A DNA stretch of 40,769 nucleotides, taken from assembly GCA_027460585.1 (NCBI GenBank), contig JAPZAP010000061.1, positions 1-40,769 of the forward strand, in the 5' to 3' direction. Under the pieces are notes generated by a model. That model ran no database searches and was not told the origin of the DNA. It saw only the letters and a list, made by a program, of their open reading frames with translations. How positions within the stretch are numbered: the stretch's first letter is position 1; every line of letters begins with the position of its first letter. This DNA is from Candidatus Methanoperedens sp. Lineage in GTDB: Archaea; Halobacteriota; Methanosarcinia; Methanosarcinales; Methanoperedenaceae. Both the position numbers and the translations under genes were made by a program. Shown one piece after another: positions 9,728 to 40,636 of this stretch.

Positions 9728-9982
9728 TCAGATGACAATACACATCGGTTCTTCACAGCAAACAATTTCACCGGCGCTATTTGATGCGCAGACCATTTCA
9801 CATCCGCAGACTTCACAATAATATGTTTCCCCGGTTTCTGCTTTGCTTGCCTTTTTTGTCCTGACCTTCTTTTTTGGCTTCACAGCTTTTGTTTCGGATT
9901 TCATAGCATGGACTTTTCCTCTTTCATTCCACCATGAAGAAGCAGGTGAAGAGGTAGATTTAGATGCTTTTGTTTTAACCAT
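9728..9982 (-). CDS. desulforedoxin-like domain with a basic N-terminal tail
   Basis: The start at 9982 is supported by a GGGAGG site 9 bases upstream and gives 84 residues. The first 50 are rich in Lys, Ala and Ser (KPKKKVRTKKASK), disordered and basic. The last 35 carry YYCEVCGCEMVC and VCCEEPM, the CxxC...CC pattern of desulforedoxin and the N-terminal domain of desulfoferrodoxin, which binds one Fe or Zn with four Cys. Two extra Cys make the site less regular. A role in redox or oxygen defence is inference; the basic tail could bind nucleic acid. Confidence 0.65.
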   Translation of the reverse strand: MVKTKASKSTSSPASSWWNERGKVHAMKSETKAVKPKKKVRTKKASKAETGETYYCEVCGCEMVCASNSAGEIVCCEEPMCIVI

Positions 9983-10156
9983 AAATTTTTCCTCCCTGAT
10001 ATTTTTATTGGTCACTACTATCATTTATACTTTACCCAACTATTATGTGTTGATATTTATAAACTAAATTAATATCAATGTTTTAAGAAAATACCCGGGG
10101 CCTAAAATAATCAGAGTTATAAAAAAAAGAAAAAGTTATATTCACCTGAAAAAGTT

Positions 10157-10193: not shown

Positions 10194-11423
10194 TTACGGT
10201 CTATTTGCCTTGGTTTTGCCTGGCTGTAACTGCCTTCTTCTAATTACCATGATGGCTGCTATTGCGGCTATAAGTGACCCTATCCATCCAATGGCAGGCG
10301 ATTTTGGCGTTGCTGCTGCAGTTTCATTGAACATTGCACTGCTGCTGACGCTTGCTAATTCCACATTGACGGATTCCATTTCAGTGGTAATGATCTCGGC
10401 TTCCAGCTGGTATGTCAGCGACGCCTTGACATTTATTCCATCTGTACCGTTTGGCGTATCAAACTCAAAAACCTCAATTCTGCTCTCTTGCGGTTTGAAC
10501 CTGTTGTCGTTTGCCACAGCTGCCGCCTTCCAGAAGTCGGACACCTCATTATTATACTGGTCGACAAGTGTCTTGGTGTAGACCTTTTCGCTGCTATATA
10601 TTTCGTGCCCCTGCCTATCGCTTACATTAAGGTCCAGAATGACCTTTCGTGAAGGAAGGCCGCTTGGGATCATGTGGCCAACGTTATTGTTGGTAATATT
10701 GAGAGTAACTTTAACCCTATTCCCGGTTTCCTGAATACTGGAATTTATCCGGAACGCATTCTCCAGGAACTGACCTGTGTGCCCGCCGTACCAGAAATGC
10801 TGGTAAACCTTATCCCGGATTGTCCCGTTCTTCGCTGCTACCCCAGTTTTTGTCTCCATATGGCAGTCCTGGCATTGTTTTCCCTCGGCTGCATACGGTC
10901 CTTCCTTCCATTCAGTATAGGTCTGGGAAATCGGCACGCCGTTGATCGAGAAATCATGACAGCCTGCGCAAAACTCTGATTTGTTGTGCAGCCCTGAGTA
11001 GGCTGAAGCATGTGCGTCGGTCTTTGAATCCGTATAAGGACCCTGCATCGGGTTGCTCTGGCTGAAGATATAATTGTTATTAACAACTCCGGTGACGGAA
11101 TGACAGAAACTACATGTGACGCCTTCAACTGATATCGATTTTGTCAGGTTGAGATCGTTCGTAATTCTTGTTGTGGGAGAGTGGCAGGTCAGGCAGTAAC
11201 CCCTGTATTTCGGGTCAGATTCAAGTGCATGCAAGTATTCTGCCTCGAAAATCGGGTCATTCACTGAAAGGGCATGCATCGAACGAGACCATTCATTATA
11301 TCTCTCCTGGTGGCAGTTGGCACATGAATAGCTAAGCTGGAATTCCCCTTGTGCATGTACTGCCGGAATCATCCACATTAACATCAAACCAATAACGGTT
11401 CCAAATATTACTTTTACACTCAT
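10194..11423 (-). CDS. membrane-anchored pentaheme c-type cytochrome
   Basis: This 409-aa protein has a signal peptide (residues 1-25, ending AVHA) and five CxxCH heme sites: residues 34-38, 77-81, 104-108, 152-156 and 184-188. Residues 200-370 form a beta-rich domain without hemes, and one transmembrane helix near 376-393 is followed by a basic tail. It should sit on the outside of the membrane and pass electrons. The layout recalls cytochrome c-554-like proteins of ANME archaea. It lies 102 bp downstream of an FrhB-like gene, close enough to be part of the same redox cluster or to have its own promoter. Confidence 0.9.
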   Translation of the reverse strand: MSVKVIFGTVIGLMLMWMIPAVHAQGEFQLSYSCANCHQERYNEWSRSMHALSVNDPIFEAEYLHALESDPKYRGYCLTCHSPTTRITNDLNLTKSISVEGVTCSFCHSVTGVVNNNYIFSQSNPMQGPYTDSKTDAHASAYSGLHNKSEFCAGCHDFSINGVPISQTYTEWKEGPYAAEGKQCQDCHMETKTGVAAKNGTIRDKVYQHFWYGGHTGQFLENAFRINSSIQETGNRVKVTLNITNNNVGHMIPSGLPSRKVILDLNVSDRQGHEIYSSEKVYTKTLVDQYNNEVSDFWKAAAVANDNRFKPQESRIEVFEFDTPNGTDGINVKASLTYQLEAEIITTEMESVNVELASVSSSAMFNETAAATPKSPAIGWIGSLIAAIAAIMVIRRRQLQPGKTKANRP

Positions 11424-11525
11424 ACAATTCCTCCCATATTAGATTACAACTCGAACGTTATTATTAGTGTCGGTCATCTCATGGCAATACAGGCATTCAA
11501 AGCGATAATAAAATTACATATTCAT

Positions 11526-12713
11526 TTACCAAAGAGCCTGGGACCCTTTCTCCTTTGCTGTTTCTTTTATGATAGGCGTCAAAATCCTGGTATAGGAATA
11601 GTCATTCACTACCGGCTCAGAGATTACCAGATCGCTTGTTACTTTTGAGGCTTTTTCTCTTGTTTTCTCGCCGATCTTCAATTTCTTTTTAAGAGCTGCC
11701 ACTTTTCTTAGATGTTCTATATCTTTCAATTCCTTTCTTACCAGAAGGCCGGACGCTACTGCTGAATCCAGCAGTTTTTTACCAATTTCTGTCCTGACGA
11801 TCGTGGTATTCCAGCCATCTTCGCTTCCGACAGAACCTATGGAAATATCAGCGTATTCTGCTGCATAATCGTGGCAGGGAAGACAACCAAGCATGCTGTA
11901 TTTATGAAGGTCTTTCAGGCTGAATGTATGAATTGAGATTTTATCTTCTACCGTTAACTCATGAATAATCATCTTGCCTTTAACATCCACTTTCATGATA
12001 TTGCCCGGTTTTATTTTCTCTTTATCCTTCAGGAATTCATTGAAAAGCCCGCGATAATTGAAAGCTTCCATGCAGAATATGCCAATCTTTAGCTTATGTA
12101 TGTCCCTGAATTCTTTAAAGTCAGGAGAACTATTGATCAGATGCTCTGCTATGGTAACACAGGGCATACCCACAATTGCTAGCTTTTTATAACCGGCTTT
12201 GATAGCATCCCGCCAGCACGTGAGGACAGAAGCTTCCGAAAGCTTGGTGCCTGCAAAATCCAGTATTTCCTGCGAAGTTGCAGCAAGTCTGGGTTTACCG
12301 ATCCATCCTTTGTCTTTATCAACAAGCAGTGCTGAATCGATTACCTCATCCTTCAGCCCCTGGATAAGCAAAGAAGTAACAGTGCCTCCGATCTGTGCTT
12401 TTTTCAGGATAGCCTCGTCCGTGCTCTTTGTTGAACAGATCTCAAGATATGGCCCCAGGAACTCATCTGTAATTTGTCCCGCATTAACAGGGGGTCTGGG
12501 ATTAGTTGTTGAGTTGGTGGGATTTATAACAGGACATACCTGCATATCCTTATCAAATGCTACACTATCTTCATCGAACACAAGTTCCCCGTCTTTAAAC
12601 CCTACTCCGGGGCTTGGGTTCACACAAACACAGGCTCCGCAGTAAACGCAGCATTCCCTTGCAACAGGTTTTACGAGCCTGCTGTCAGCATATTTTTCTA
12701 TATCCAGATACAT
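11526..12713 (-). CDS. FrhB/FpoF-like F420-dependent oxidoreductase subunit
   Basis: The 395-aa protein is of the coenzyme F420 hydrogenase/dehydrogenase beta subunit family. A Cys-rich N-terminus (C21, C22, C25, C28, C30, then C60) binds an Fe-S cluster. The middle contains KAQIGGTVTSLL, the family's flavin-site region, and the end has GCLPCHDYAAEYADISIGSV and GWNTTIVRT, both hallmarks of the family. It probably uses FAD to exchange electrons between F420 and ferredoxin or another carrier. It starts one base after the ferredoxin stop, so the two form one unit. Confidence 0.85.
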   Translation of the reverse strand: MYLDIEKYADSRLVKPVARECCVYCGACVCVNPSPGVGFKDGELVFDEDSVAFDKDMQVCPVINPTNSTTNPRPPVNAGQITDEFLGPYLEICSTKSTDEAILKKAQIGGTVTSLLIQGLKDEVIDSALLVDKDKGWIGKPRLAATSQEILDFAGTKLSEASVLTCWRDAIKAGYKKLAIVGMPCVTIAEHLINSSPDFKEFRDIHKLKIGIFCMEAFNYRGLFNEFLKDKEKIKPGNIMKVDVKGKMIIHELTVEDKISIHTFSLKDLHKYSMLGCLPCHDYAAEYADISIGSVGSEDGWNTTIVRTEIGKKLLDSAVASGLLVRKELKDIEHLRKVAALKKKLKIGEKTREKASKVTSDLVISEPVVNDYSYTRILTPIIKETAKEKGSQALW

Positions 12714-12714
12714 T

Positions 12715-12963
12715 TCAGGCCTCCTTCTGGGTTACTTCGATTATCCCTACCGGGCACTGGTTTTCACATAGCCGGCAGCCGAAGCACATTTCTTCAGCCA
12801 CGACTTCCGTTGTAGTCCCCATCCATTGCGGGATCCTTTCTTCGTACTCAGGCCCCTTAAAATCCGTGGGTTTTAGCCTGAACACGCGCCGCGGGCACAT
12901 GTCTTCACATATGCCGCACGCGAAACACTGGGACTCGTTAACATATACATTATATCCTGGCAT
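12715..12963 (-). CDS. 2[4Fe-4S] ferredoxin
   Basis: The 82-aa protein has two CxxCxxCxxxCP clusters, CFACGICEDMCP and CFGCRLCENQCP, separated by about 33 residues. The insert between them (around KGPEYEERIPQWMG) is longer than in clostridial ferredoxins. It would carry electrons between the FrhB-like flavoprotein encoded immediately downstream and a membrane partner. Translational coupling with the FrhB gene is likely from the one-base spacing. Confidence 0.92.
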   Translation of the reverse strand: MPGYNVYVNESQCFACGICEDMCPRRVFRLKPTDFKGPEYEERIPQWMGTTTEVVAEEMCFGCRLCENQCPVGIIEVTQKEA

Positions 12964-13011
12964 ACAAATCCTCCCGAAAAGACTTAAAAAGCCTCTTCTG
13001 AAATTGGATGT

Positions 13012-13896
13012 TCAATCCAGCCTGCCTAGTGATGATGCATAATCATTTAATACCTCGTTGATCGTAGTTTGGGCGCCCAGCATTCCTGTTATATCTCCGT
13101 TCTTTGCGGAACTCGTAAGAGCAGTAAATGCATCTTCCATCTGCGAATATTTCGTGCTGTCCCAATCCCTCAGGGTGGTTCCCAGTCTTAAATGAGCTGC
13201 ATCAGCCTCAAGTGCTTTTGTGATGGCAGTTGTATTGTCTCCCTTTTGCTCTGCATATATGGCATCATTCATTGCGGTTCTTACATCTTTGACCGAATCA
13301 GCATTCGATATGGGAATTAAATATGTGTTCATAAAGAACTCGGAGCCTTTTGCTTCCCACATAGGACCGATCGAATATGGAATAACTACGGCGATAAGTG
13401 TCAGGGCTGTAAGACCTGTGGCAACCATATATTTGGTCTTGCTGGCATCGGTATCCCACACAAGCTTGTATAACAACGTTATAATTCCAAGCAGGAAAGC
13501 CGGTATAAAAACGCCAGTGTTCCAGTCAGCCTGAACTCTTGGAACGATCATTATTCCCAGAAGTCCGACTGCACTGAGTATTAAGACATCTCTTCCTATT
13601 ACCCAGCCTTCCCAGAGGAGATCAGCACCTAGCCTGAGAGTCATCCGGTTTAAATATCTTAAGACCATAGGTCTTGCGATATGCAGGCTGAGCGCCATAA
13701 AAAGCATCATTATTACACTTGGCATAAGCGTAACGATCACGAACCATTCTGCATAATCCATCCATCCCTTCATCATCAGGGCATTCCCGTTCAGAGCCGG
13801 GCTTACATCATCAGCCATAGCTACCCCAATTAAGGGAATGGTCATCAATACCAGTATTGCTAAATTAAATGCTAAATTCGAGTTTCGATTTTTCAT
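13012..13896 (-). CDS. multi-pass membrane protein of a redox cluster
   Basis: The start at 13896 is preceded by AGAAGGAAA and gives 294 residues; a start 66 bases upstream would lack a good site. A first helix that may be a signal (ILVLMTIPLIGVAMA) precedes an external segment. Hydrophobic helices then lie around FVIVTLMPSVIMMLFMALS, VLILSAVGLLGIMIV, VFIPAFLLGIITLLY and ATGLTALTLIAVVIPYS, and a soluble helical domain of about 110 residues ends the protein. There are no heme or Fe-S motifs. Its place upstream of ferredoxin and FrhB suggests a membrane anchor or quinone/phenazine-reactive subunit, which is inference. I do not recognise the family. Confidence 0.6.
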   Translation of the reverse strand: MKNRNSNLAFNLAILVLMTIPLIGVAMADDVSPALNGNALMMKGWMDYAEWFVIVTLMPSVIMMLFMALSLHIARPMVLRYLNRMTLRLGADLLWEGWVIGRDVLILSAVGLLGIMIVPRVQADWNTGVFIPAFLLGIITLLYKLVWDTDASKTKYMVATGLTALTLIAVVIPYSIGPMWEAKGSEFFMNTYLIPISNADSVKDVRTAMNDAIYAEQKGDNTTAITKALEADAAHLRLGTTLRDWDSTKYSQMEDAFTALTSSAKNGDITGMLGAQTTINEVLNDYASSLGRLD

Positions 13897-13982
13897 ATCA
13901 TTTCCTTCTGGCTTAAAAGCCAACAACATCCATTTGTTTGAACTATATTTATAATTATTCAAGAAAAAAATTAATTGTGCAT

Positions 13983-14096
13983 CAGGAAGATAAATAAATT
14001 AGCCAAAACAAATGTTTTTGTGCCACAGGAAGAAAAATAAATTATTCAAAAAAAAACGTTTTTGTAGACACAGGAAGATTAATAATTAGACATAAA
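13983..14096. repeat. three tandem ~44-bp imperfect repeats in a divergent promoter region
   Basis: Units start with CAGGAAGA at 13983, 14026 and 14071 (43 and 45 bases apart). Each continues with an AAATAAATTA-like word, and the first two also share AAAAC(A/G)...GTTTTTGT. They lie between the redox-cluster gene reading left and the HTH-RDD gene reading right. Regular spacing near four helical turns makes an operator array plausible. The regulator is unknown; the adjacent HTH protein is the obvious candidate. Confidence 0.55.
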
Positions 14097-31341: not shown

Positions 31342-32490
31342 TTACAAAAATCGCGGAACGTATTTGTTTTCTTCTTTTGGTTTGATGTAACCTTCGAACA
31401 TCTTTAAAAATGCTGGATTTGTAACGTACTGGCCCCTGGCCGTCTTGATAATCAGCTTTCGTCTTAACAGCTTATTGGTTAAGATCCTATTTTCTAATTT
31501 ACCTTGCCATGAAAATCCGGATTTTAAAATCATATCAATACAACTGGGATCTAACTTCAACATTTCAGATACGTTAATTATCATTGAATCGAATTCTCGT
31601 TTTGTGGATCTGAATATGATACCCACAGTTTCCGCGTATTCGTCCAAAGTAAATTTAATATCTTCTTCCGGATACGATGAATTAAAATCTATTTGCCCAT
31701 CATACATAGTAATTTCGAACCTGACTAAATCAATTGATTTCTGGTATAATTTTCCTTGTTGAATCTTCTGATAAGGTTCTTTCCAATTCCATGCATCCAA
31801 ATTTGTATATAAGACCGTGTCATCGACAAAATATTCAGTATCGATATCTGGTTTTTCTCCAAAATACATAGTTTTTGAAGCCTGGTTAAAACTCTTAAAA
31901 GCCACTCCTTTCATGAAAAGGTCATTCCGGATATCATCAACAGATAATGGCTTCATTTCCCTGGCAACTTCGAGAGTAACACACTTACAAACAGGCCTTT
32001 CGTCATTTTCCCGAAACTTTGCGTATTCATGCGGCCACAAAAGATTATATTTTTCTTCGAAAATTGCCGTTATTTCTTGTGGTAACTTATTCAAATAAAC
32101 ATCAAGGAAATCATGAAGAGTCACTTTTGATCCTATAGGTAAAAAATTATCGTCATGGATCACCGGTGTTATGATATCATGCTCCATTTCAAATTTTTGA
32201 AAAAAATACCTATTAAAATTAAAATATACATTCATGGACCGAGATTGCCTTAATCTCAATTCCCATGAAAAATATTTTTTTGGGCTGCCATGCTCAAAAT
32301 ACAAAACCCTTTCTTTACCCTTCCCTTTGAATTTTGAGATCTTGGTTTCGAACTCAAGATTCAATCGATCAATAAGATCCGGATCAAAAAAATTGTTATC
32401 TGAATTTTTCACAGCTGAAGGAAAATACACAACCCAGGCGGAACGATCCAGAACCACCCGGTCAAGTGTAAAATCTCCTTCTTCAGCCAT
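31342..32490 (-). CDS. probable rolling-circle replication initiator (gpII/G2P-like)
   Basis: The 382-aa protein shows the order of motifs I associate with phage gpII/X-type initiators: a strand-rich N-terminus with VYFNFNRYF (residues 88-96), VTLEVAREM (171-179), KTMYFGEKP (206-214), a Tyr-rich stretch, and LVRFEITMYDG (255-265). The C-terminal third is helical and may bind DNA. I do not find a textbook HUH motif, so the catalytic residues are not identified. It is the last gene of a long minus-strand operon and borders the hairpin region, as an initiator next to its origin would. Confidence 0.5.
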   Translation of the reverse strand: MAEEGDFTLDRVVLDRSAWVVYFPSAVKNSDNNFFDPDLIDRLNLEFETKISKFKGKGKERVLYFEHGSPKKYFSWELRLRQSRSMNVYFNFNRYFFQKFEMEHDIITPVIHDDNFLPIGSKVTLHDFLDVYLNKLPQEITAIFEEKYNLLWPHEYAKFRENDERPVCKCVTLEVAREMKPLSVDDIRNDLFMKGVAFKSFNQASKTMYFGEKPDIDTEYFVDDTVLYTNLDAWNWKEPYQKIQQGKLYQKSIDLVRFEITMYDGQIDFNSSYPEEDIKFTLDEYAETVGIIFRSTKREFDSMIINVSEMLKLDPSCIDMILKSGFSWQGKLENRILTNKLLRRKLIIKTARGQYVTNPAFLKMFEGYIKPKEENKYVPRFL

Positions 32491-32496
32491 GTAATT

Positions 32497-32961
32497 TTAT
32501 TCGACCCGGGGAGCTCGTCTTCTAATACCCGTATTTTTGACAATCTCAGCATCGAGAATACTATTGAAATAGTCGCAATTTTCAGGAAGGTCAAGCCATT
32601 CCAAGAATCTGGCCATAACCAGAACAGGTATATCCATGGAATAACTTTTATCCATTTCATTGAATTTGGCCGGGCCTTTAATAACTACACCATTTAAGGC
32701 GCCATATTCAACTTTTTGTTTACTTTTAACATCTAAAAAGCTCCTTTCACCCTCACGCCTGAGTGTGATTTTTGTTTTTACATCGTTGAATGAATATTTC
32801 CGATCCAGATCTTCAAGAGGTAAAACCCTTCCTGGAATCAACGGTGGATTATTTGATCCACCAGTTCCACTACTGATTTTATTCTTTTCAACAGCAAGAA
32901 GGTTCTCTGCATTATGCTTTGCCCGTTCTTCTTCATCACTTAATTTTTTAAAATTCACCAT
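32497..32961 (-). CDS. unknown element protein upstream of rep
   Basis: The 154-aa soluble protein starts MVNFKKLSDEEERAKHNAEN, has a Gly/Ser/Pro-rich linker (ISSGTGGSNNPPLIPGR) and then a strand-rich domain of about 100 residues (KTKITLRREGERSFLDVKSK, GALNGVVIKGPAKF) with a basic tail. It ends 6 bases before rep. In filamentous phages a single-strand DNA-binding protein is encoded next to the initiator, and a small beta domain would fit, but there is no sequence match to claim it. Confidence 0.5.
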   Translation of the reverse strand: MVNFKKLSDEEERAKHNAENLLAVEKNKISSGTGGSNNPPLIPGRVLPLEDLDRKYSFNDVKTKITLRREGERSFLDVKSKQKVEYGALNGVVIKGPAKFNEMDKSYSMDIPVLVMARFLEWLDLPENCDYFNSILDAEIVKNTGIRRRAPRVE

Positions 32962-32978
32962 ATTTTTTCTCCTTTATT

Positions 32979-33185
32979 TTATTTCGGGAAGAACCGCACG
33001 CCTATGTAAAAGGTAAGCAGCCCCAAAATATTTTTAATATCATTTGCACCTATGCCAACGCCTAATAATAGTAAAACTCCTATTAGAGCGAAGGCACCAT
33101 TAACTACCATATCAATGTCTTTTTTTTCTTTACCTGTCAGTTTAAAATTCGATATTGTTCTATCTTCATCTTTTTCCGTATTCAT
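32979..33185 (-). CDS. small two-helix membrane protein (coat-protein candidate)
   Basis: Start ATG 33185 has GAGGTG six bases upstream. The 68-aa product has a charged N-terminus of about 25 residues (NTEKDEDRTISNFKLTGKEK), a hydrophobic helix VNGAFALIGVLLLLGVGIGA, and a second short hydrophobic segment to the end. Major coat proteins of filamentous viruses are this small and have one hydrophobic helix, but their order is usually different, so this is one possibility among several small membrane proteins. Confidence 0.5.
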   Translation of the reverse strand: MNTEKDEDRTISNFKLTGKEKKDIDMVVNGAFALIGVLLLLGVGIGANDIKNILGLLTFYIGVRFFPK

Positions 33186-33192
33186 ATACACC

Positions 33193-33360
33193 TCAATTCA
33201 TAACCTCGGCAAAAGCCGTCAAAGGCTTATGACTATCATCCGGGCGTTCGTCTTTCCGAAGGCCCAGCTCCCAAACAAGCATTTCGCGCTTGCTTGAAAG
33301 TTTCAAAATTTCTCGATCTATTTTTGAGATCTCTCGTTCAATGCCTGGAACAGGATCCAA
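33193..33360 (-). CDS. 55-aa coiled-coil protein, TTG start
   Basis: The frame from TTG 33360 to TGA 33193-33195 begins 3 bases behind the ParB-like stop and in the same frame. It encodes a helical heptad-like peptide (GIEREISKIDREILKLSSKR) and a Pro/Asp-rich end. Tight spacing on both sides supports translation by coupling. Function is unknown; it could be a dimerising or capping small protein. It might also be reached by stop-codon read-through of the ParB gene. Confidence 0.45.
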   Translation of the reverse strand: MDPVPGIEREISKIDREILKLSSKREMLVWELGLRKDERPDDSHKPLTAFAEVMN

Positions 33361-33363
33361 GGA

Positions 33364-34821
33364 TCACACCCCCAATCCTTTGAGCAGCTGCTCCATAGAT
33401 TTGGCATCAGGTTCACTATATTCAAACTCAGCACTTACAACAAGTCGCAATACTGCTTTTGGAAGATCTTCGTCCGGAATCTTAGTGAAATCATACACTT
33501 CTTCCGTTTCATCATCATCGATCTGAATTTCGGGCCAAGGGGAAAAAGCAGTTTCCGCATCCCCGTACCCATGATCAACTAATGATTTCAATATAGGTCT
33601 GGAATCCATATTGCTAATTCCTTTCAACCTATCATCACATAATTGCCAGGCTTTTTCAGATTCCGTATCTCTGATGCTGTCTTGCTCCTTCTGGAAGGCT
33701 TTTTCTTTCTTCTGGAAACATTTGACATCAAGACAGACTAACATTTTGTCCTGGTTTTTCTTGCATTTATCACATGAAGAGCAGGCCGTTTGATCCCAAG
33801 TTGCATTTTTTTGATCCGGAGAGGTATTACGAAGTTTTTCATATGTCCCATAGGCCATTTTCGAAGTATCAATTTGATCTTCTATCAAAAGATTTTCTAC
33901 TTTCTTTTCCTCAGCAAGCTTGAAATTCTCGCGAGCTGCATCAAGTTTTGCAGTCCAGCAATCTTTATTCAGACAGTGTTTGTTATTATCATTTGTATAA
34001 TTTAGGATAACAGCTATATCTTTGCAATCTTTGCAATTTTCAAAATCAAAAAAACCTTTCAATGGTCTAATATCATAAGAGAAACTGTCTAAATTCAGAC
34101 TAAGATTGTTTGAATAATTATTGAAAACATTAATGAGAAGCTTATCTAAGTCTTTCACCGATAAAGGACGAGATTCAATAAAATTCTTTACTTGTTTTTC
34201 AATGACATTGTAAATAGGATATTTTGCAAAAGGTAAAAGAATATTTGCATGGCTAGGAGTTATTTCTTGCGAAATAATAAGATCCTTCAATTCCTGGGGA
34301 GCATCCAGCAGCCTCAACCGGTTAGCAACATAAGCCTGGCTTTTTCCCATCTTCATCCCGAGCTCTGTTTGATTCAGGGCGCCATCGTCCAGGATCAGTT
34401 TGATACCCTGGGCTTCTTCCAGAGGTGAAAAGTCCTTCCGGTGAAAGTTATCTATAAAAAGCAAAAGCTTTGCTTCCGGATCACTTAGATCCCTGATAAT
34501 TGAAGGAACAGGATTGATCTCAAGCTCAATAGCAGCCCTGAGCCTTCTATGCCCTCCAACGACCTGATATCTTCCCAGGACTGCTGCAGGCCTGAGGAGT
34601 AAAGGCTCGTGGGGATAAAACCCATTCTCCTGCATACTTAATTTGATTTCTTCAAATTCCTGATCGTGATATGATTCTTCTGTGCGGGGATTCCATCCTG
34701 TAAGATCAATCAATGAAGTATCGATCATCAGGATTGTAGGTTTTTTCTGAATCTCTGAAACTTTTTCCTTTTTCAATCCTTTTCTTAATTCGTTGTTTGA
34801 TTCTTTCTTTTTACTTGCCAT
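33364..34821 (-). CDS. ParB-like partition/regulatory protein with Cys-rich C-terminal half
   Basis: From ATG 34821 (overlapping the previous gene by 11 bases) the protein has 485 residues. Residues 30-125 form a ParB N-terminal nuclease/CTPase-like domain with VVGGHRRLRAA at 87-97 and IDNFHRKDFSPLEEA at 123-137. A helix-turn-helix spans about 150-171 (QTELGMKMGKSQAYVANRLR). The second half has two Cys groups, C263/C266/C283/C288 and C347/C350/C353/C363/C368, each fit for zinc. No parA is present. It may segregate the element or silence its promoters. Confidence 0.8.
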   Translation of the reverse strand: MASKKKESNNELRKGLKKEKVSEIQKKPTILMIDTSLIDLTGWNPRTEESYHDQEFEEIKLSMQENGFYPHEPLLLRPAAVLGRYQVVGGHRRLRAAIELEINPVPSIIRDLSDPEAKLLLFIDNFHRKDFSPLEEAQGIKLILDDGALNQTELGMKMGKSQAYVANRLRLLDAPQELKDLIISQEITPSHANILLPFAKYPIYNVIEKQVKNFIESRPLSVKDLDKLLINVFNNYSNNLSLNLDSFSYDIRPLKGFFDFENCKDCKDIAVILNYTNDNNKHCLNKDCWTAKLDAARENFKLAEEKKVENLLIEDQIDTSKMAYGTYEKLRNTSPDQKNATWDQTACSSCDKCKKNQDKMLVCLDVKCFQKKEKAFQKEQDSIRDTESEKAWQLCDDRLKGISNMDSRPILKSLVDHGYGDAETAFSPWPEIQIDDDETEEVYDFTKIPDEDLPKAVLRLVVSAEFEYSEPDAKSMEQLLKGLGV

Positions 34822-35134
34822 GTAAAGCCACCACGATAGGAACGATTTCATATGCAGGTCCTTCTATTTCACCCTGGAATTTCACCGAATTTACTGTAAA
34901 ATTATTAGAACTATTGCCTATCGGTAACATCTCTTTCGGTAAATCAAAATTTCCAGAAACCTCAAAATCGCCATTGAATTTAACAGGACTTGTTGCACAA
35001 ACAAAAATCCCACCTATCAATATAGCAAAGAATACACCTATTGCTATTGATTCAACGATACGTTCTTTTTCTGATTTTTCACGGTCAATACCTCTAATTA
35101 TTGATTTTTTTACTGAACTCAAAATTTCTTTCAT
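34811..35134 (-). CDS. single-pass membrane protein of the element
   Basis: The 107-aa protein has a basic/acidic cytoplasmic start (KKSIIRGIDREKSEKER), one membrane helix at about residues 27-48 (IAIGVFFAILIGGIFVCA), and a strand-rich exported domain of 55 residues with NSSNNFTVNS, a possible glycosylation site. A type II membrane protein of this size could be a virion or entry-exclusion protein. Both gene ends overlap neighbours (ATGA upstream, 11 bases downstream), so it belongs to the operon. Confidence 0.55.
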   Translation of the reverse strand: MKEILSSVKKSIIRGIDREKSEKERIVESIAIGVFFAILIGGIFVCATSPVKFNGDFEVSGNFDLPKEMLPIGNSSNNFTVNSVKFQGEIEGPAYEIVPIVVALHGK

Positions 35135-35715
35135 GCTAAAACCTTCCTTTTTCCAATTTCACGAACTTCAGAAATAGTAAGTAAATCAGATGGCGGAGAT
35201 AACTCAACCATCTTTCCTGTCATGGATTTAATAAGATATCCATCTGCAATCATGGACATAATGCGTTTGAAAACAGTCTCCTGAGAATATCCATTACGAT
35301 GATTTATTCTAGAAAATACAAACAGAAGCAATGATTTCATATTATGTTCAACGTAAACCCTGTAAACAAGATCATAGATTGCCCTGGTCAGATCATCAAA
35401 ATCTGCTGCAGGTCGTGAAACGATTTCTTTTTTTTCATCGAGCGGGATCTTCGTTCCAATCCGCATGAAAAACCGCTTATGCCAGTTGCCAGCCCTCTTT
35501 TCAATATATACAATTTCAGGCTTTGAGTTATCGTATTGAAAGTTCTCGCATACATACAATTTCTGGTTTGAGATCTTACCATAAACCTGACAATCCACAT
35601 CAATTACCTGGAATTGAGGCTGGATCAAAACTCTATCACTTGTCATTGCGATACCAGAGAATGAAACGCATTGAGTGCAATTCTGTTCCATCCAATCAAG
35701 GAAATGAGGTTGCAT
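35131..35715 (-). CDS. unknown element protein with a winged-helix-like C-terminus
   Basis: The 194-aa protein has Cys near the start (MEQNCTQCVSFSG), a strand-rich first part (VIDVDCQVYGKISNQKLYVC, KPEIVYIEKRAG) and a helical last third with RNGYSQETVFKRIMSMIADG and YLIKSMTGKMVEL that could fold as a winged helix. CxxC at residues 13-16 may bind metal. The gene overlaps its neighbour downstream by ATGA and starts directly after the stop of the 62-aa gene. I do not recognise it. Confidence 0.55.
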   Translation of the reverse strand: MQPHFLDWMEQNCTQCVSFSGIAMTSDRVLIQPQFQVIDVDCQVYGKISNQKLYVCENFQYDNSKPEIVYIEKRAGNWHKRFFMRIGTKIPLDEKKEIVSRPAADFDDLTRAIYDLVYRVYVEHNMKSLLLFVFSRINHRNGYSQETVFKRIMSMIADGYLIKSMTGKMVELSPPSDLLTISEVREIGKRKVLA

Positions 35716-35904
35716 CTAAGAACACGCTCCAAATATTTCCGGATCCAAATAACATTGTTTCGCAAAAGCCAGCCCGCGATATTCGTCTATCCTGAAATTG
35801 ATATCAACAGGAATAGAAAGAAGCCTTGCTTGAAGCTTCACAAAATCTTCACAGGTTTCGCGCTTTCCTTTCCAGCAATTAAGGCAATGATGAATAGAAG
35901 CCAT
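35716..35904 (-). CDS. 62-aa Cys-containing protein
   Basis: The product begins MASIHHCLNCWKGKRETCED with CxxC at 7-10 and further Cys at 18, 51 and 61. It could be a zinc finger. Its stop is directly followed by the ATG of the next gene, and its start follows a 16-codon frame by zero bases. Similar small Cys proteins lie upstream. Confidence 0.5.
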   Translation of the reverse strand: MASIHHCLNCWKGKRETCEDFVKLQARLLSIPVDINFRIDEYRGLAFAKQCYLDPEIFGACS

Positions 35905-35955
35905 TTAGTTGTAAACCCCCTGTTCAGGACTATAACAAAGAGCAATTTCGGTCAT
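35905..35955 (-). CDS. possible 16-aa leader peptide
   Basis: ATG 35955 is preceded by GTGATTGAA, the same ribosome-site context as the next gene upstream, and the frame ends at TAA directly before the ATG of the 62-aa gene. It may be a coupling peptide. At this length it could also be chance. Confidence 0.25.
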   Translation of the reverse strand: MTEIALCYSPEQGVYN

Positions 35956-35956
35956 T

Positions 35957-36181
35957 TCAATCACTCATATCCACATCTTCATATCCCAAACTCTTAAGAG
36001 CATTCAAACACACTTCAATGACCTTTTTTTTATCAAGATTGGTCATTTCACGGTTTAAATTTATAATAAAATTAAATTCATTTTCTGTATGATTATTTTC
36101 ATACTCTTCTAAGAAAGTTTCTTCTTTTTTAGTCAATTTTTTGCCTGTTCTAACTTTTTCCTGTATTTTAAGTATGTCCAT
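35957..36181 (-). CDS. 74-aa helical protein
   Basis: The start at 36181 is supported by GGTGATTGAA directly upstream, a good match to the archaeal anti-Shine-Dalgarno end. The protein is charged and helical (MDILKIQEKVRTGKKLTKKE, then KKKVIEVCLNALKSLGYEDV), with a hairpin-like pair of helices. It may bind DNA or a partner. No family is recognised. Confidence 0.55.
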   Translation of the reverse strand: MDILKIQEKVRTGKKLTKKEETFLEEYENNHTENEFNFIINLNREMTNLDKKKVIEVCLNALKSLGYEDVDMSD

Positions 36182-36182
36182 T

Positions 36183-36533
36183 TCAATCACCCACAACATA
36201 CCAAGGCCGTTCATATTGAGGAGATGAGCCGGGCATTTCACCCGGCAGGTAGTCTATGACATTCTCACGCCTGACTTGCTTCTCGTTATCCCGGCTTTTG
36301 GCATCTGCCGGTCGATGATCAGAGAGGCCGTATATTCCTTGAATCCCATGACAAAGAGGAGCCTGCAAATCCCCTGCAGGCTGGGGGTCAATCCCCGGAA
36401 TAGTAGCGGTGGCTTTGAATATAGGGGATAGGGAATGACAGGAAACACCGGCGACATCAGGAGTTCGCGCCGGTAATAAATCATTGACAGGCCAGCAGGG
36501 TTCCTGACATGAAAAAAATTCTTCAAAGCACAT
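36183..36533 (-). CDS. 116-aa Cys/Pro-rich protein, frame uncertain
   Basis: From ATG 36533, preceded by GGGGGC, the frame encodes Cys-rich MCFEEFFSCQEPCWPVND, a long low-complexity middle, and an end SPQYERPWYVVGD whose TGA is one base from the next ATG. That coupling, the Cys content like its neighbours and the ribosome site favour this frame. A second frame, 36254-36526, is also open over most of the region. The stretch is richer in GC than the rest of the operon. Confidence 0.4.
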   Translation of the reverse strand: MCFEEFFSCQEPCWPVNDLLPARTPDVAGVSCHSLSPIFKATATIPGIDPQPAGDLQAPLCHGIQGIYGLSDHRPADAKSRDNEKQVRRENVIDYLPGEMPGSSPQYERPWYVVGD

Positions 36534-36639
36534 TTGGAAGCCCCCAGAATTTCCTTGCAAAAGCTACTCTTTCTTTCAGAGGCTTTTTTGAGATCTGATC
36601 AGAGGTTACAAATTTCATATTCTTTGAAGAGCTTGCCAT
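36523..36639 (-). CDS. 38-aa basic peptide
   Basis: ATG 36639 overlaps the TAA of the upstream gene (TAATG). The product is MASSSKNMKFVTSDQISKKP and a further KERVAFARKFWGL segment, with net positive charge and one helix. Small size limits what can be said. Confidence 0.4.
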   Translation of the reverse strand: MASSSKNMKFVTSDQISKKPLKERVAFARKFWGLPNVL

Positions 36640-36785
36640 TAATCATGCCCTCCATGAATCTTACACGGCACAGCCATACTACCGCGAATTTCAACATCTT
36701 CAGCGCGACAAACATCAAAATCCATCGCATTAAAGCCAATTACGACTTTACAACCACACTCTAAAACCACAGTTCGCGTAGTCAT
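36639..36785 (-). CDS. 48-aa Cys-containing protein
   Basis: ATG 36785 overlaps the TAA of the upstream gene (TAATG). The product has VLECGCKVVIGFN with C10 and C12, then C26 and C41 near HGG. Four Cys and a His fit a zinc site. It is one of several coupled small Cys proteins. Confidence 0.5.
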   Translation of the reverse strand: MTTRTVVLECGCKVVIGFNAMDFDVCRAEDVEIRGSMAVPCKIHGGHD

Positions 36786-36928
36786 TACTTTCCACCCCTC
36801 AAAGCTCCCCTTAACTGAAATTCCTCATAAGGAATAATCCTGAAATCAGACTTACAACCGTCACATTCGGGATAGCTGCCACAATCATCACCCATCACGT
36901 TAAACCCATTATTTGCAATGCAGTCCAT
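36785..36928 (-). CDS. 47-aa Cys-containing protein
   Basis: ATG 36928 follows GGGGTGTG. The product has C3, C16, C22 and C25 (DDCGSYPECDGCKSDF), a CxxC-type cluster, and an acidic to basic end. A small zinc finger is likely from the Cys spacing. Its TAA overlaps the next ATG. Confidence 0.5.
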   Translation of the reverse strand: MDCIANNGFNVMGDDCGSYPECDGCKSDFRIIPYEEFQLRGALRGGK

Positions 36929-36930
36929 AT

Positions 36931-37101
36931 TCACACCCCAGGAATAGGCCGCACTTTTATGAATCGGCCTTCGGCATCTTCAGCAGATTCTAAAATAACC
37001 TTTGATATTCCAGAAAAAAGATCATCCCTGACAAAAGCAGGGATCGGTATAGAAAGCTGGTTATTCTTCCGGGAACGCTTGATAGAATATTCAGCAGGCA
37101 T
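36931..37101 (-). CDS. 56-aa AbrB-like protein
   Basis: ATG 37101 follows the stop of the first operon gene directly. The product reads MPAEYSIKRSRKNNQLSIPI and ends GRFIKVRPIPGV. The RKNNQLSIPIPA turn resembles the swapped-hairpin DNA-binding fold of AbrB/MazE proteins, although the second half is short. It could be an operon autoregulator. Confidence 0.45.
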   Translation of the reverse strand: MPAEYSIKRSRKNNQLSIPIPAFVRDDLFSGISKVILESAEDAEGRFIKVRPIPGV

Positions 37102-37389
37102 TTAAGCCTCGATACGAGGATCAGATTCCGACCCATTTTTCAAAAATTCTGAAAGTGGAACCTGAGAAGGAACAGTAGATTGCAGCTTAAGTTTCTCCGA
37201 AAGGCAATCAAGAGCAACGTGTATAGCATGGCTATAATTACACCGATTGACACCCTGCTTCAAGAACCCGTCACGTTTCAGATTAACATTATTGAAATTC
37301 TCACACAATTCATCCAAACGTTTTTGATCGCCTTTGATTAAACGGGCACGCCCGCCGTATTCTTTTAAACTGCAATCGACTTGTACCAT
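37102..37389 (-). CDS. first gene of the element's minus-strand operon, unknown
   Basis: The 95-aa protein begins MVQVDCSLKEYGGRARLIKG and has a helical middle (QKRLDELCENFNNVN) and CNYSHAIHVALDCLSEKL, with three Cys. AGGAG stands 8 bases before the ATG. It might be a small regulator, being the promoter-proximal product, but no DNA-binding motif is clear. Confidence 0.55.
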   Translation of the reverse strand: MVQVDCSLKEYGGRARLIKGDQKRLDELCENFNNVNLKRDGFLKQGVNRCNYSHAIHVALDCLSEKLKLQSTVPSQVPLSEFLKNGSESDPRIEA

Positions 37390-37397
37390 TTGCTGAT

Positions 37398-37455
37398 GCT
37401 CCTATGTTTATCGTCTTTCGCTAAAAAGACATACTTAAGATTATTTTAAAAGTAC
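37398..37455 (-). promoter_or_regulatory. promoter and ribosome site of the element operon
   Basis: On the minus strand a TATA-like CTTTTAAAATA (near 37443-37455) is followed about 50 bases later by AGGAG (37399-37403) and the ATG at 37389. The divergent nuclease gene has its own TATA-like CTTAATACC at 37620-37628. Between them lies a 6-bp inverted repeat, TTAGCG (37517-37522) with CGCTAA (37539-37544), which could be an operator. Confidence 0.45.
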
Positions 37456-37675
37456 TTATAGTTTTGCCATTGTCCAAAAACTTTGTACAAAGCTTAAATA
37501 CAAACAAAATCAAATATTAGCGGGCGCGTTAAAACCTGCGCTAACAGGGCTCAGAGGAAAATCAACTTTTTTCAAAAAGTCTGATGCTCACCTCTGTTCA
37601 CGCGCCTACCCACAAAAAGACTTAATACCATAATGATGATAATAAGCACTTTGTTAACGCAAGGTGAAAGTATTA

Positions 37676-38248
37676 ATGAGTTTATTCCTACTTGAGATAT
37701 TTTGGACTTCAATAATTTTAGGATTAGTATTTTTTTCTTTATATTTTCATTCTTCAAAAGATAAAAAAGAAGATACAATCGAATCAAATTCAAAAATGAA
37801 ATACTACGAAAACCGTCTAAATTCTATAATCTTAGAACATAACATTAAAAAAGGGAATCAATTCGAAGATCACGTTCGATCCCTATTTGATAGTTATTTT
37901 ACAATTCAACCGAGAACACAGAAATACCCGGATTATATAATAACATTTAACCCAAATAGAGATCACTTTGCAGTTGAATGTAAATGGAAAAAACAATTAT
38001 ATAACAATTCATATAATATAAATGAAAGGGAATTTAGAAATTATAAAAACTATCATTTTGATAATAATATCCCTTTTTTTATGGTGTTAGGCCTGGGAGG
38101 AACAGCCGCTAACCCCGAACAAATATTCATAGTACCACTTAATAGACTAAAATATCCAGATATCAAGAAATATTATTTAGATCAATTTGAAAAACGAAAC
38201 AAAAACAAGCCATTTTCTTACAATTCTCTTAGAAAAAAACTTTATTAA
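37676..38248 (+). CDS. membrane-anchored PD-(D/E)XK nuclease
   Basis: ATG 37676 is preceded by AAGGTGA, which makes the GTG at 37664 part of the ribosome site; the product has 190 residues. A membrane helix spans about residues 3-24, then a charged linker (KDKKEDTIESNSK). The nuclease core has KKGNQFEDHVRSLF, the active-site Asp in YPDYIITF and the E-x-K in FAVECKWKK. This is the Mrr/NERD-like restriction-endonuclease fold. It is the only plus-strand gene of the element, on lower-GC DNA, and looks like a cargo gene for defence or superinfection control. Confidence 0.75.
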   Translation: MSLFLLEIFWTSIILGLVFFSLYFHSSKDKKEDTIESNSKMKYYENRLNSIILEHNIKKGNQFEDHVRSLFDSYFTIQPRTQKYPDYIITFNPNRDHFAVECKWKKQLYNNSYNINEREFRNYKNYHFDNNIPFFMVLGLGGTAANPEQIFIVPLNRLKYPDIKKYYLDQFEKRNKNKPFSYNSLRKKLY

Positions 38249-38902
38249 TCACCTTGTCTTTTTCTTTTTTTGTCCGAAATACATAAGCTGATGGGTATTA
38301 TAACATTTGAATGCAGGCGTAAGATCTACATAGAAATCAGCAATCCGGGTATATTCAGCGTGATCATTGACCGTCTGGCGCCCCACCATTACACTGCAAA
38401 AAGGAGGAGAAACATAGTCACCATTGATATCAACATCCCCAACAAGGAATTTATACACCGTAATATCCCTGTATCCGTTGTAGATCCTCGAAAAGTTCTG
38501 ATCCATTGCAACGCCGGTTATCCCTATCTTTCCAGCCTGTTTCCACAATTGAGTGGTCCAGGTGTATTTCTTCCAGTCCTGGGCATCAGCCAGGCTTGAG
38601 AATTCATCAAGGATCAGGAATCTTTCAATATTCCAGGTTTCATTATCACGGATATCCTGGAATATTTCATCCAGCTGGTGAAGGCATACATTGGGATCAT
38701 CCGGATCCAGCCGGCCATCAGGGGCCCGGATATCATTTCTATTGATGTCTGTTACCTTCACATTCGAATAAATCAGGGCGCCCCTTTCATGAGCTTCCAA
38801 AGCCATGAGGACAACCAGGGCAGTTTTACCTTTCCTGGGAAGGCCGCAAACTGCATGAAGATTTAAAGGAACATACAGATTTGGAGGATCTAAACTATTC
38901 AT
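38249..38902 (-). CDS. Zot-like P-loop ATPase
   Basis: The 217-aa protein has Walker A GLPRKGKT (20-27), the family strand GALIYSNVKV (41-50), Walker B RFLILDEFSS (94-103) and the later VAMDQNFSRIYNGYRDITVY, the segment after the sensor region in Zot/pI-type ATPases. These drive export or assembly of filamentous phages. Typical Zot proteins have a C-terminal membrane helix, which is missing here; the 273-aa membrane protein of the same operon might supply it. A packaging ATPase of another virus type cannot be excluded. The stop meets the convergent nuclease stop without a gap. Confidence 0.72.
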   Translation of the reverse strand: MNSLDPPNLYVPLNLHAVCGLPRKGKTALVVLMALEAHERGALIYSNVKVTDINRNDIRAPDGRLDPDDPNVCLHQLDEIFQDIRDNETWNIERFLILDEFSSLADAQDWKKYTWTTQLWKQAGKIGITGVAMDQNFSRIYNGYRDITVYKFLVGDVDINGDYVSPPFCSVMVGRQTVNDHAEYTRIADFYVDLTPAFKCYNTHQLMYFGQKKKKTR

Positions 38903-39234
38903 ATCGTATTCGTTTCAAAGTTCATAGTCCTCTTGCGGTCCTCAACTGCCACGCGGGTAGTGGCCACTTCCTTATAAATCTGATTTGCTATCCCCGGTAG
39001 ACTTAATCTACTTGGCATAACTGATCTTGAATGCTGCCTCAGCTCATCCATAAAATTAATAACGATATCCTGATCTGGATCGCACAAACATCTTTGGAGA
39101 GCTTCGCCCCTGGCAAGAACTGCAACCTGGAAGGAAGTAAGGTTTGCCTTACTCCTTTTATCATGATCTGTATAGACTGTATTAGGATCCACGATCTTTG
39201 CCTGGCTCTGACCAGCCATAGGAAAACCTGCCAT
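38899..39234 (-). CDS. unknown protein coupled to the Zot-like ATPase
   Basis: ATG 39234 follows GGAGGTGG by 6 bases and gives 111 residues; the gene overlaps the ATPase gene by 4 bases. The protein is hydrophilic, with NLTSFQVAVLARGEALQRCL, CDPDQDIVINFMDELRQH and a basic end. No membrane helix is present. It is likely a cytoplasmic partner of the ATPase. I do not recognise the family. Confidence 0.55.
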   Translation of the reverse strand: MAGFPMAGQSQAKIVDPNTVYTDHDKRSKANLTSFQVAVLARGEALQRCLCDPDQDIVINFMDELRQHSRSVMPSRLSLPGIANQIYKEVATTRVAVEDRKRTMNFETNTI

Positions 39235-39235
39235 C

Positions 39236-40057
39236 TTATCCACCTCCGGAGTTCTTAGAAATTTGCTTAAGAATTTCAATCATCCCAACTTTCAGATCTG
39301 CAATACTTGACGCAATCCCCGAAGGCAGCCATCCAGCCATCATCAGAACAAGAATAAGCCCGAGTCCTGCAGCTGCAATAGCTGCATAATACATTACCTG
39401 CAAATTAGGAATCGAAGTCATAGCCAGAAGCTCAATATTTCGATTATTCATTTTTGAGTAAAACTCCCTGGCATCAAATGAGAACTTTCCGATCTTCAAT
39501 TTTAATTCTTCATCCAAATCTGCGGCTTTCAATTTTTCCCTGTATGCATCCTTGATCAGATTCATAATATCGGCCCAATTCCAAAGATCCAACGGCTCAG
39601 AAATTCCCTCGATAACAATGAGGATAAAGTTTCTCCTAACAGGAACAAGGCAATGTTTCCTGACATTGTAGGTACAATTATCCCAGTTTATAGTCGACAT
39701 CTGGATAGGCTTCAAAATATAAGTCCTATGATCAGCATTTCCTTCCGTTTTCAACCGCAATACTGTAAGCTTGTTATAATAGAAAAACCGCATAAACCCA
39801 TCACGCAAGCGCTCCCAGGCATAGACATACCAGGCACCCTGGGGTAAGGGAAAACCGGATTCCTCAAAAGGAGTATCCGGTATTAAATTCGGATCTGATT
39901 TTATTTCGCACGAAATAGATTTCTTAAAATCATCTTTTGCCTTTTCCTTCTTTTTGTTTTTTCTTTGAATATATCTCAAAATTTCAAAAAGCAGATACAA
40001 AACCGCTATAACAATAGCAGCTAACATCACATCACTTGTCCCGTATATCATACTCAT
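39236..40057 (-). CDS. two-helix membrane protein of the assembly module
   Basis: The 273-aa protein has an N-terminal helix (about 10-28, MLAAIVIAVLYLLFEIL), a basic linker (RKNKKKEKAKDDFKK), a soluble domain of about 160 residues with RRNFILIVIEGISEPLDLWN, and a C-terminal helix around AAIAAAGLGLILVLMMAGWL followed by a 30-residue tail. Both helices place the main domain in the cytoplasm. It could be the membrane platform on which the ATPase works. The gene ends one base before the next ATG. Confidence 0.6.
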   Translation of the reverse strand: MSMIYGTSDVMLAAIVIAVLYLLFEILRYIQRKNKKKEKAKDDFKKSISCEIKSDPNLIPDTPFEESGFPLPQGAWYVYAWERLRDGFMRFFYYNKLTVLRLKTEGNADHRTYILKPIQMSTINWDNCTYNVRKHCLVPVRRNFILIVIEGISEPLDLWNWADIMNLIKDAYREKLKAADLDEELKLKIGKFSFDAREFYSKMNNRNIELLAMTSIPNLQVMYYAAIAAAGLGLILVLMMAGWLPSGIASSIADLKVGMIEILKQISKNSGGG

Positions 40058-40075
40058 ATTTTCATTCCTATTTTT

Positions 40076-40636
40076 CTAATTTTTGTCAAAAGTCATTAAA
40101 AACGAATATCCGCAAGCGGAGATTAATAAAATAACCATTCCAGACAGAAGAAAAGCTGATGAATTTGTATGATCTATCTGGGTCAATCCGAACCACGCAG
40201 AATAAGCAGCACCTGCAGCAGGTACAAAGAAGTTCTTCTTTACAAAAGCAAGGATAAAAATAAATCCTATCAACAACAAAGTTTCAGCTAACATTTTCTT
40301 ATCTACCTCATATGTATTTTGTATAACATTGAAATTCTCCAGAATAAAATCCTTATTAACATCAGTACCGCTTACGCTAACAACAGTTTCATTCTGAATG
40401 TACCCTGATAGTCCGGCCAGAAGCACAGCTGTAAAATTATTGTGCATCTGGGTAAAATTATAATTTCCGGTCGAATCCGTAAGCGTATATTTCGTATCAT
40501 GGCAACCATAGCAAGATACAATAGCACCAGCAATGGGAACGCCAGAGGCATTCAAAACCCTCCCTGTAATATTATAGGAAATAATTTGAGAAGCAACTAC
40601 ATCAACACTCCAATTCAGATAAGCAAAATTCGGCAA
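40076..40636 (-). CDS. membrane-anchored protein with a carboxypeptidase-regulatory-like domain
   Basis: The 186-aa frame begins at TTG 40636; the frame is closed by TAA shortly upstream and a TATA-like element lies about 25 bases before, so a leaderless message is possible. Residues 18-95 form a beta sandwich of the CarboxypepD_reg type (ITGRVLNASGVPIAGAIVSC, DSTGNYNFTQ) with several N-x-S/T sites. Three membrane helices follow (around 115-132, 138-150 and 160-180). A surface spike or adhesin is a reasonable inference. Confidence 0.65.
   Translation of the reverse strand: MPNFAYLNWSVDVVASQIISYNITGRVLNASGVPIAGAIVSCYGCHDTKYTLTDSTGNYNFTQMHNNFTAVLLAGLSGYIQNETVVSVSGTDVNKDFILENFNVIQNTYEVDKKMLAETLLLIGFIFILAFVKKNFFVPAAGAAYSAWFGLTQIDHTNSSAFLLSGMVILLISACGYSFLMTFDKN

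Follow-up and report, generated by a model that had tools for sequence, protein, structure and literature searches.

A candidate FrhB-ferredoxin-cytochrome electron-transfer cassette with an orphan membrane protein, confined to part of the genus Methanoperedens

The window considered here, a stretch of 40,769 nucleotides, is contig JAPZAP010000061.1 (positions 1 to 40,769, forward strand) of Candidatus Methanoperedens sp. assembly GCA_027460585.1, denoted genome G000 and contig C61 below. Between 13896 and 10194 four genes follow one another on the minus strand, coding for an orphan membrane protein (Mem), a 2[4Fe-4S] ferredoxin (Fd), an FrhB-type F420 oxidoreductase subunit (FrhB) and a pentaheme c-type multiheme cytochrome (MHC). 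The three gaps between them measure 48, 1 and 102 bp (Table 1), and a purine-rich stretch resembling a Shine-Dalgarno sequence lies ahead of each gene. A first-pass annotation of the window had described this set, with gaps of 1-102 bp, as a possible electron-transfer complex; the genes, their positions and their spacing are confirmed, and the interpretation is partly supported. That annotation did not include a divergently transcribed regulator, a helix-turn-helix (HTH) domain fused to an RDD membrane domain, nor the operator region shared with it. The five-gene cassette is confined to part of one genus.

Table 1. Genes and putative control elements of the cassette in the window
Feature	Position	Strand	Basis
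Mem, orphan membrane protein, 294 aa	13012..13896	-	Pfam/NCBIfam/PDB searches, hydropathy
2[4Fe-4S] ferredoxin (Fd), 82 aa	12715..12963	-	Fer4 twice (Pfam), two CxxCxxCxxxCP motifs
FrhB-type F420 oxidoreductase subunit, 395 aa	11526..12713	-	FrhB_FdhB_N + FrhB_FdhB_C
Pentaheme c-type cytochrome (MHC), 409 aa	10194..11423	-	Cytochrome_C554, exactly five CxxCH
Divergent regulator, DUF7347/ArsR-like HTH fused to RDD membrane domain, 242 aa	14152..14880	+	Pfam
Tandem operator (putative) TTCCTGnnnnACAA...TTCCTG	13983..14031	-	only exact occurrence in genome
TATA-like TTATAAATATA upstream of Mem	13944..13954	-	read by eye; small changes among 8 aligned loci

Mem is found in 9 of the 31 genomes of the genus and in 9 of the 185 genomes of the order, and no further full-length match was found among 237 genomes of the class or 392 drawn from the phylum. 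The class search gave 11 genomes, the nine from Methanoperedens and two with short marginal matches that were not counted (G125, E 7.6e-4 over 61 residues; G193, E 0.005 over 41 residues); the phylum sample gave four, two of the Methanoperedens set and two short marginal ones (G125 and G269). In viral contigs 39 stretches with the pattern were picked up, none of which was confirmed. All nine Mem genomes keep the order regulator-Mem-Fd-FrhB (the regulator of G055 is cut by a contig end), and in all nine the MHC gene adjoins FrhB (that of G065 is cut in the same way). In G069, FrhB is split over two contigs, the end of the first and the start of the second sharing exactly 127 bases, and the MHC gene lies on the second. 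Linkage of the module is beyond chance. For the four module genes, compared in five or six genomes each, nonsynonymous divergence (dN) is well below synonymous divergence (dS) in the pairs listed, and the genes are under purifying selection. Wherever Mem occurs, the genes form one conserved, co-regulated and co-inherited unit. Conservation across anaerobic methanotrophic archaea (ANME), for which the first-pass annotation had suggested a check, is not supported, since every Mem genome belongs to the genus of the window. The carriers are some of the freshwater methane-eating archaea.

The tree of the module conflicts with that of RpoB. In an RpoB tree of the eight module genomes with RpoB, the window genome groups with G069, G051 and G057 (100/100); in the tree of the concatenated module it groups with G067, G065 and G049 (100/100). 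Each grouping is rejected on the other data set by the approximately unbiased (AU) test, with p 8.5e-5 when the RpoB grouping is imposed on the module and p 1.9e-4 when that of the module is imposed on RpoB; the group for this second test was chosen after the module tree was seen. On an RpoB tree of 29 of the 31 genus genomes the module requires three changes when set against the nar-linked genomes, a number as low in 226 of 500 label shuffles. Because of this conflict the cassette appears to move within the genus, an inference limited by the use of one marker gene and by fragmentary genomes; the module genes were transferred together. Mis-binning as a source of the conflict was judged unlikely. 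The cbiD gene of the window is nearest to that of G054 (82%), the RpoB sister, with 73% for G067. The contig is thus consistent with its genome, and the cassette has the look of a transferred one. The window genome has two cbiD copies, 73% identical (C61:24874-25884 and C24:3157-4146), which are either paralogues or contamination; its contamination is about 4%.

The regulator follows the module closely. Full-length orthologues of the HTH-RDD protein are found only in the nine module genomes of the 31 (counting the truncated one of G055), and in the other genomes there is either no match or one that covers part of the protein at no more than 46%. The shared upstream region contains a repeated TTCCTGnnnnACAA element, with copies in the window at 13962-13997, 14005-14040 and 14050-14085. 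A tandem operator pattern, derived from the module loci themselves, occurs exactly once in seven of the nine module genomes, always in the regulator-Mem intergenic region; the reversed pattern, used as a control, is absent from all nine. The tandem repeat is presumably a private operator to which the HTH-RDD protein would bind.

FrhB belongs to the FrhB/FdhB/FpoF superfamily, both domains being above the gathering cut-off (FrhB_FdhB_N, E 2e-14 and 53.8 bits, cut-off 22; FrhB_FdhB_C, E 2e-33 and 116.1 bits, cut-off 23.3). It scores below the cut-offs of the models for the beta subunit of F420-reducing hydrogenase (TIGR03289 equivalog, 192.9 bits, cut-off 331.5) and for FpoF (NF040616, 133.9 bits, cut-off 475). 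The best PDB matches are to FrhB of F420-hydrogenase (154-148 bits), with which the retained core cysteines C185, C214, C277 and C280 (numbered from Met1) align. Four others, C22, C25, C28 and C60, could hold an extra N-terminal cluster. Like FrhB, the ferredoxin retains its cofactor cysteines; its mean column identity is 95% over seven sequences, and such near-invariance fits a bound subunit. In the module of G051 the FrhB frame is interrupted near residue 330 (L004:5226-6411), either by decay or by an assembly error. FrhB paralogues with an N-terminal cysteine-rich part that by eye resembles a YHS domain are seen at L059, L060, L063, L064, L067, L068 and L072-L074.

The cytochrome has a signal-like N-terminus and a C-terminal hydrophobic helix followed by RRR. 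A beta-rich part is possible from the structure model, which is poor (pLDDT 43). With its five CxxCH motifs and alignable sequence MHC belongs to a pentaheme family of the Methanosarcinales (MA3739 type), and is 29-34% identical to the nine aligned sequences from outside the orthologue set. All five CxxCH are present in 25 of 25 aligned sequences; the alignment took only frames with five, a filter that none of 24 loci failed. Other conserved histidines are H50, H138, H209 and H250 (25 of 25) and H215 (15 of 16 sequences from the genus). With five hemes and four invariant histidines outside the CxxCH motifs, one heme could be open. The ExtKL model (NF040886) gives 99.3 bits against a curated cut-off of 250, and at the selenocysteine position of the ExtKL/MccSep GHxxPxGU motif MHC has Leu256 (counted by hand on the alignment; the motif is at 249). 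Identity with MmcA was rejected, since the 13 homologues fetched from other genera all have five CxxCH and MmcA is reported to have seven (PMC6703419).

Within the genus, the same cytochrome is found with other partners. Orthologues of at least 53% identity (that of G065 a fragment) occur in 17 of the 31 genomes, nine with Mem, six with NarG and two with an FrhB-NapH cluster, with zero overlap, and this non-overlap is suggestive. In G070, G054 and G044 the series is NarG, NarH, NarJ-like, EB_dh protein, cupredoxin, NapH-like, cupredoxin and then MHC. In G042 it is NarG, NarH, NarJ-like, NapH-like and MHC, with intervening stretches unresolved by picking of open reading frames and the MHC gene about 0.4 kb after the NapH-like gene. 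These names follow the published operon (PMC4683180), and Pfam supports those of the molybdopterin and EB_dh proteins, each on the basis of a single member. MHC is thus linked to nitrate reductase in four of the six NarG genomes; in the other two (G041, G043) it lies beside an exosortase-like gene (named by eye), with NarG on another contig. The pentaheme gene ends the nitrate reductase operon at L084:8913-10124, L085:8272-9483, L086:5561-6772 and L087:6057-7265, and the published operon table stops one gene short of it (PMC4683180). NarG of the nar-operon type is present in 6 of the 31 genomes, none of them with Mem, and the NapH-like protein of that operon (at least 68% identity) in these six and in G046 and G056. 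The remaining genomes of the genus have only NapH-like paralogues, roughly 28-41% identical, and G060 has none. In G046 and G056, which lack NarG, the series is cupredoxin, FrhB, NapH-like, cupredoxin, pentaheme MHC and eight-heme MHC. A sister relation of the window FrhB with the FrhB of this cluster has an AU p of 0.38. The cluster (L081:5915-12603, L082:3828-10492) also has a divergent pair of an HTH protein and a small membrane protein, the pair having been recognized by eye. Within one genus, a single pentaheme cytochrome has partners of three kinds, and its role becomes separable by comparison.

Two observations concern the surroundings in the window. Behind MHC (9728-10024) lies a small protein with a desulfoferrodoxin N-terminal domain, at the position where relatives have a bacterial-PH-like gene; the latter is found 3' of MHC in all seven other genomes whose contig continues, and the window lacks it. 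The right end (31342-40636) is possibly a mobile or viral element, with, for example, a Zot-like ATPase (38249-38902, by eye).

Mem is the least familiar part of the module. Its hydropathy profile has a signal-like helix (8-26) and further helices at 53-71, 99-118, 128-146 and 158-176, followed by a helical domain of about 100 residues at the C-terminus. Between the first two membrane helices is an almost invariant, arginine-rich segment with R75, R80, R84 and R88, and R102 at the loop end. Positively charged loops of membrane proteins tend to remain inside the cell, and by this positive-inside rule the arginine-rich loop is assigned to the cytoplasm and the C-terminal domain to the outer side. 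The latter, a helical bundle, is the only well-modelled part; its matches in structure searches are generic, being four-helix bundles that reach Z 12.7, and such matches are common for bundles. As the first-pass annotation had it, the protein has no assigned family: the best Pfam score is 12.6 bits to an unrelated family and the best NCBIfam score 16 bits, both below cut-off, and no family of PDB sequences is matched. The claim that it lacks cytochrome b or NrfD features is also true at the sequence level. No NrfD model of Pfam or NCBIfam was reported for Mem at E up to 1, and its membrane helices have no histidine pairs of the kind expected in a cytochrome b anchor, His235 being in the C-terminal soluble domain; a heme shared between Mem and another subunit is conceivable. 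As a NapH-type polyferredoxin Mem was rejected, because it has no cysteine and because hhalign, run on shallow profiles of low power, gives a probability of 0.1% against six NapH-like sequences. Exosortase, EpsI, RDD and TauE/SafE-like proteins, taken as controls and named by eye except for RDD, gave at most 1%, again with shallow profiles.

Taken together, these features suggest a genus-private, horizontally moving five-gene cassette that passes electrons from F420H2 to FrhB, Fd, Mem (probably with a quinone) and MHC, a reading to which we give an even prospect. We infer a complex with its redox carriers, direction, quinone step, operator binding and final acceptor along the following lines. 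On the cytoplasmic face FrhB, with FAD and an estimated two [4Fe-4S] clusters, would take electrons from F420H2 and hand them to the dedicated ferredoxin, which would dock on the arginine-rich loop of Mem. Since Mem, with no cysteine and one membrane-proximal histidine, cannot hold a heme or Fe-S ladder alone, it is proposed to bind menaquinone most probably, and would pass the electrons to MHC, which would lie on the outer side. Control of the module would rest with the HTH-RDD protein, acting through its private operator. By analogy, Mem and a separate ferredoxin would do the job of the NapH-like protein in the G046/G056 cluster. Crossing of the membrane through Mem is the weak step of the chain, and is unproven. 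The purpose may be respiration or protection. A bolder version is offered only tentatively, namely that the module is a direct wire from F420H2 to a multiheme cytochrome that bypasses Fpo, with ligand-free Mem and a detachable ferredoxin replacing cytochrome b, NrfD and NapH, and that, passing from one Methanoperedens species to another, it serves as a plug-in alternative to nitrate-reductase-linked use of the cytochrome.

A number of observations weigh against such a chain. Mem has no cysteines and only two histidines, His72 and His235, and so lacks ligands for a transmembrane cofactor chain; its structure model is poor (mean pLDDT 54, residues 63-193 below 50). Mem and MHC are more variable than Fd and FrhB, and the operator pattern is missing from two of the nine module genomes (G049, G055). 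The non-overlap of MHC contexts is statistically weak (p 0.04 for 9 versus 8 among 31; p 0.09 when only the 23 genomes with a completeness of 90% or more are counted; neither corrected for kinship). Homologues of MHC in other genera add to this. They are about 30-40% identical and occur in 79 non-genus genomes; with the genus included, 98 of the 185 genomes of the order have a hit at E 1e-20. Among 13 loci fetched from these 79 genomes, ten have a superoxide reductase (SOR) gene within 1.5 kb (tblastn; PF01880 confirmed in two members scanned) and ten a CMD/AhpD-like gene nearby. This oxidative-stress association of the MA3739-type cytochrome, beside SOR and CMD/AhpD, is seen in most inspected loci among L037-L049, L128 and L129. 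In G148, for example, the run is CMD, SOR, MHC, FMN reductase, flavoprotein, rubrerythrin and flavodiiron-type protein, the MHC presumably being MA3739 of M. acetivorans C2A. Loss of MA3739 reportedly affected neither the reduction of anthraquinone-2,6-disulfonate (AQDS) nor the uptake of electrons from Fe(0) or Geobacter (PMC8546582, PMC10989991), and direct interspecies electron transfer was described as unharmed by deletion of the M. mazei five-heme gene (PMC8546582). These findings speak against regarding the pentaheme family as an established extracellular conduit, although redundancy with MmcA may mask an effect of MA3739, the transcripts of which rise 80% without mmcA (PMC11024163).

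With such neighbours and such deletions, MHC could instead be a surface reductase for O2, peroxide or NO that is fed from F420H2 via FrhB, Fd and Mem, a defence rather than a respiratory outlet. The possibly open heme, the match to Cytochrome_C554, and a dedicated regulator with a private operator, as suits a response system, are all in keeping with this. We regard it as possible, on the doubtful side. Against it, no SOR was found in the eight Methanoperedens loci checked (the CMD gene of G041 is about 4 kb from its MHC), the SOR-linked homologues are distant in sequence, leucine occupies the ExtKL/MccSep selenocysteine position, the orthologues in nitrate-reductase operons suggest electron transfer, and MA3739 transcripts are up 4.1-fold in AQDS respiration (PMC6703419). 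Alternatively, FrhB, Fd and Mem may do no more than reduce menaquinone at the membrane with F420H2 (or ferredoxin), as a non-pumping short cut that runs alongside Fpo, with MHC merely co-expressed and reduced by other quinol oxidases. A site near the cytoplasmic face would suit a Mem without a transmembrane redox chain, and both menaquinone and Fpo have been reported in the family (PMC7327174, PMC7082337); the constant position of MHC beside FrhB and its membership in the co-transferred block that was tested make this unlikely. It is more improbable still that Mem is a sensor or anchor and that the four proteins form no electron-transfer complex. The protein has no known family and its bundle resembles many unrelated ones, sensor domains among them, as is common for bundles; strict gene order, the 1-bp Fd-FrhB gap in the window, the near-invariant ferredoxin and shared transfer all speak against this reading. 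Hardly more can be said for the reverse direction, in which electrons picked up by MHC outside the cell, or from a second cell, would serve FrhB to reduce F420. FrhB chemistry is reversible, which favours it, and the usual extracellular donors lie at potentials above F420, which does not. Also in its favour, the FrhB-type subunits of ethane-oxidizing archaea are described as F420-reducing (PMC11493965); against it, F420 itself is near -360 mV (PMC4683180), and no ion-coupling subunit is recognized in the module.

How anaerobic methane oxidizers release low-potential electrons is a standing question. No Rnf was reported for 16 metagenome-assembled genomes of the Methanoperedenaceae (PMC7327174), and the outlet for low-potential carriers in this family is a question for that reason. 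ANME are known for FrhB paralogues in odd clusters, for MHC exit modules and for NapH-like routes (PMC9012536, PMC7327174, PMC4683180). The composition of the present module and the Mem family were absent from the literature searched, which did not extend to supplements, where a mention is possible.

The F420H2-to-cytochrome cassette proposed here resembles several described systems in part. With the FrhB/FpoF/FdhB family, for example the F420-reducing carbon monoxide dehydrogenase (CODH, 8RIU; 134 bits to the window FrhB) and Fwd (8RJA; 96 bits) of ethane-oxidizing archaea, it has in common both FrhB Pfam domains, the core [4Fe-4S] cysteines and an additional N-terminal Fe-S region; where those have a hydrogenase, CODH or Fwd as partner, the window FrhB has a membrane protein, a cytochrome and a separate ferredoxin. 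The menaquinone:cytochrome c oxidoreductase groups 4 and 5 of Methanoperedenaceae, an NrfD-like protein with a 4Fe-4S protein and MHCs (PMC7327174), are alike in the adjoining membrane protein, Fe-S protein and MHC and in the proposed electron exit; unlike them, the module shows no NrfD match and adds FrhB. The Methanoperedens nar operon, with a NapH-like protein and cupredoxins (PMC4683180), has the orthologous pentaheme MHC at its end; in the module Mem and Fd stand for NapH and cupredoxins and FrhB stands for NarGH, and hhalign finds no similarity between Mem and NapH-like proteins. The five-heme cytochrome of Methanosarcina (MA3739 type) has the same five CxxCH and a C554-like part, whereas its homologues in other genera are mostly beside SOR. 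ExtKL/MccSep have the GHxxPxGxP motif in common with MHC, and differ from it in selenocysteine for leucine and in the unreached ExtKL score. Rnf-MmcA of Methanosarcina and Mco of ANME-2a/b (PMC11024163, PMC9012536) also combine a membrane module with a multiheme cytochrome; among the five genes here neither an Rnf subunit nor a cytochrome b is recognized. We class the module as a new form of the electron-transfer modules built on FrhB, one in which the membrane component is new; being compact, mobile and under a single regulon, it is small enough for expression and testing.

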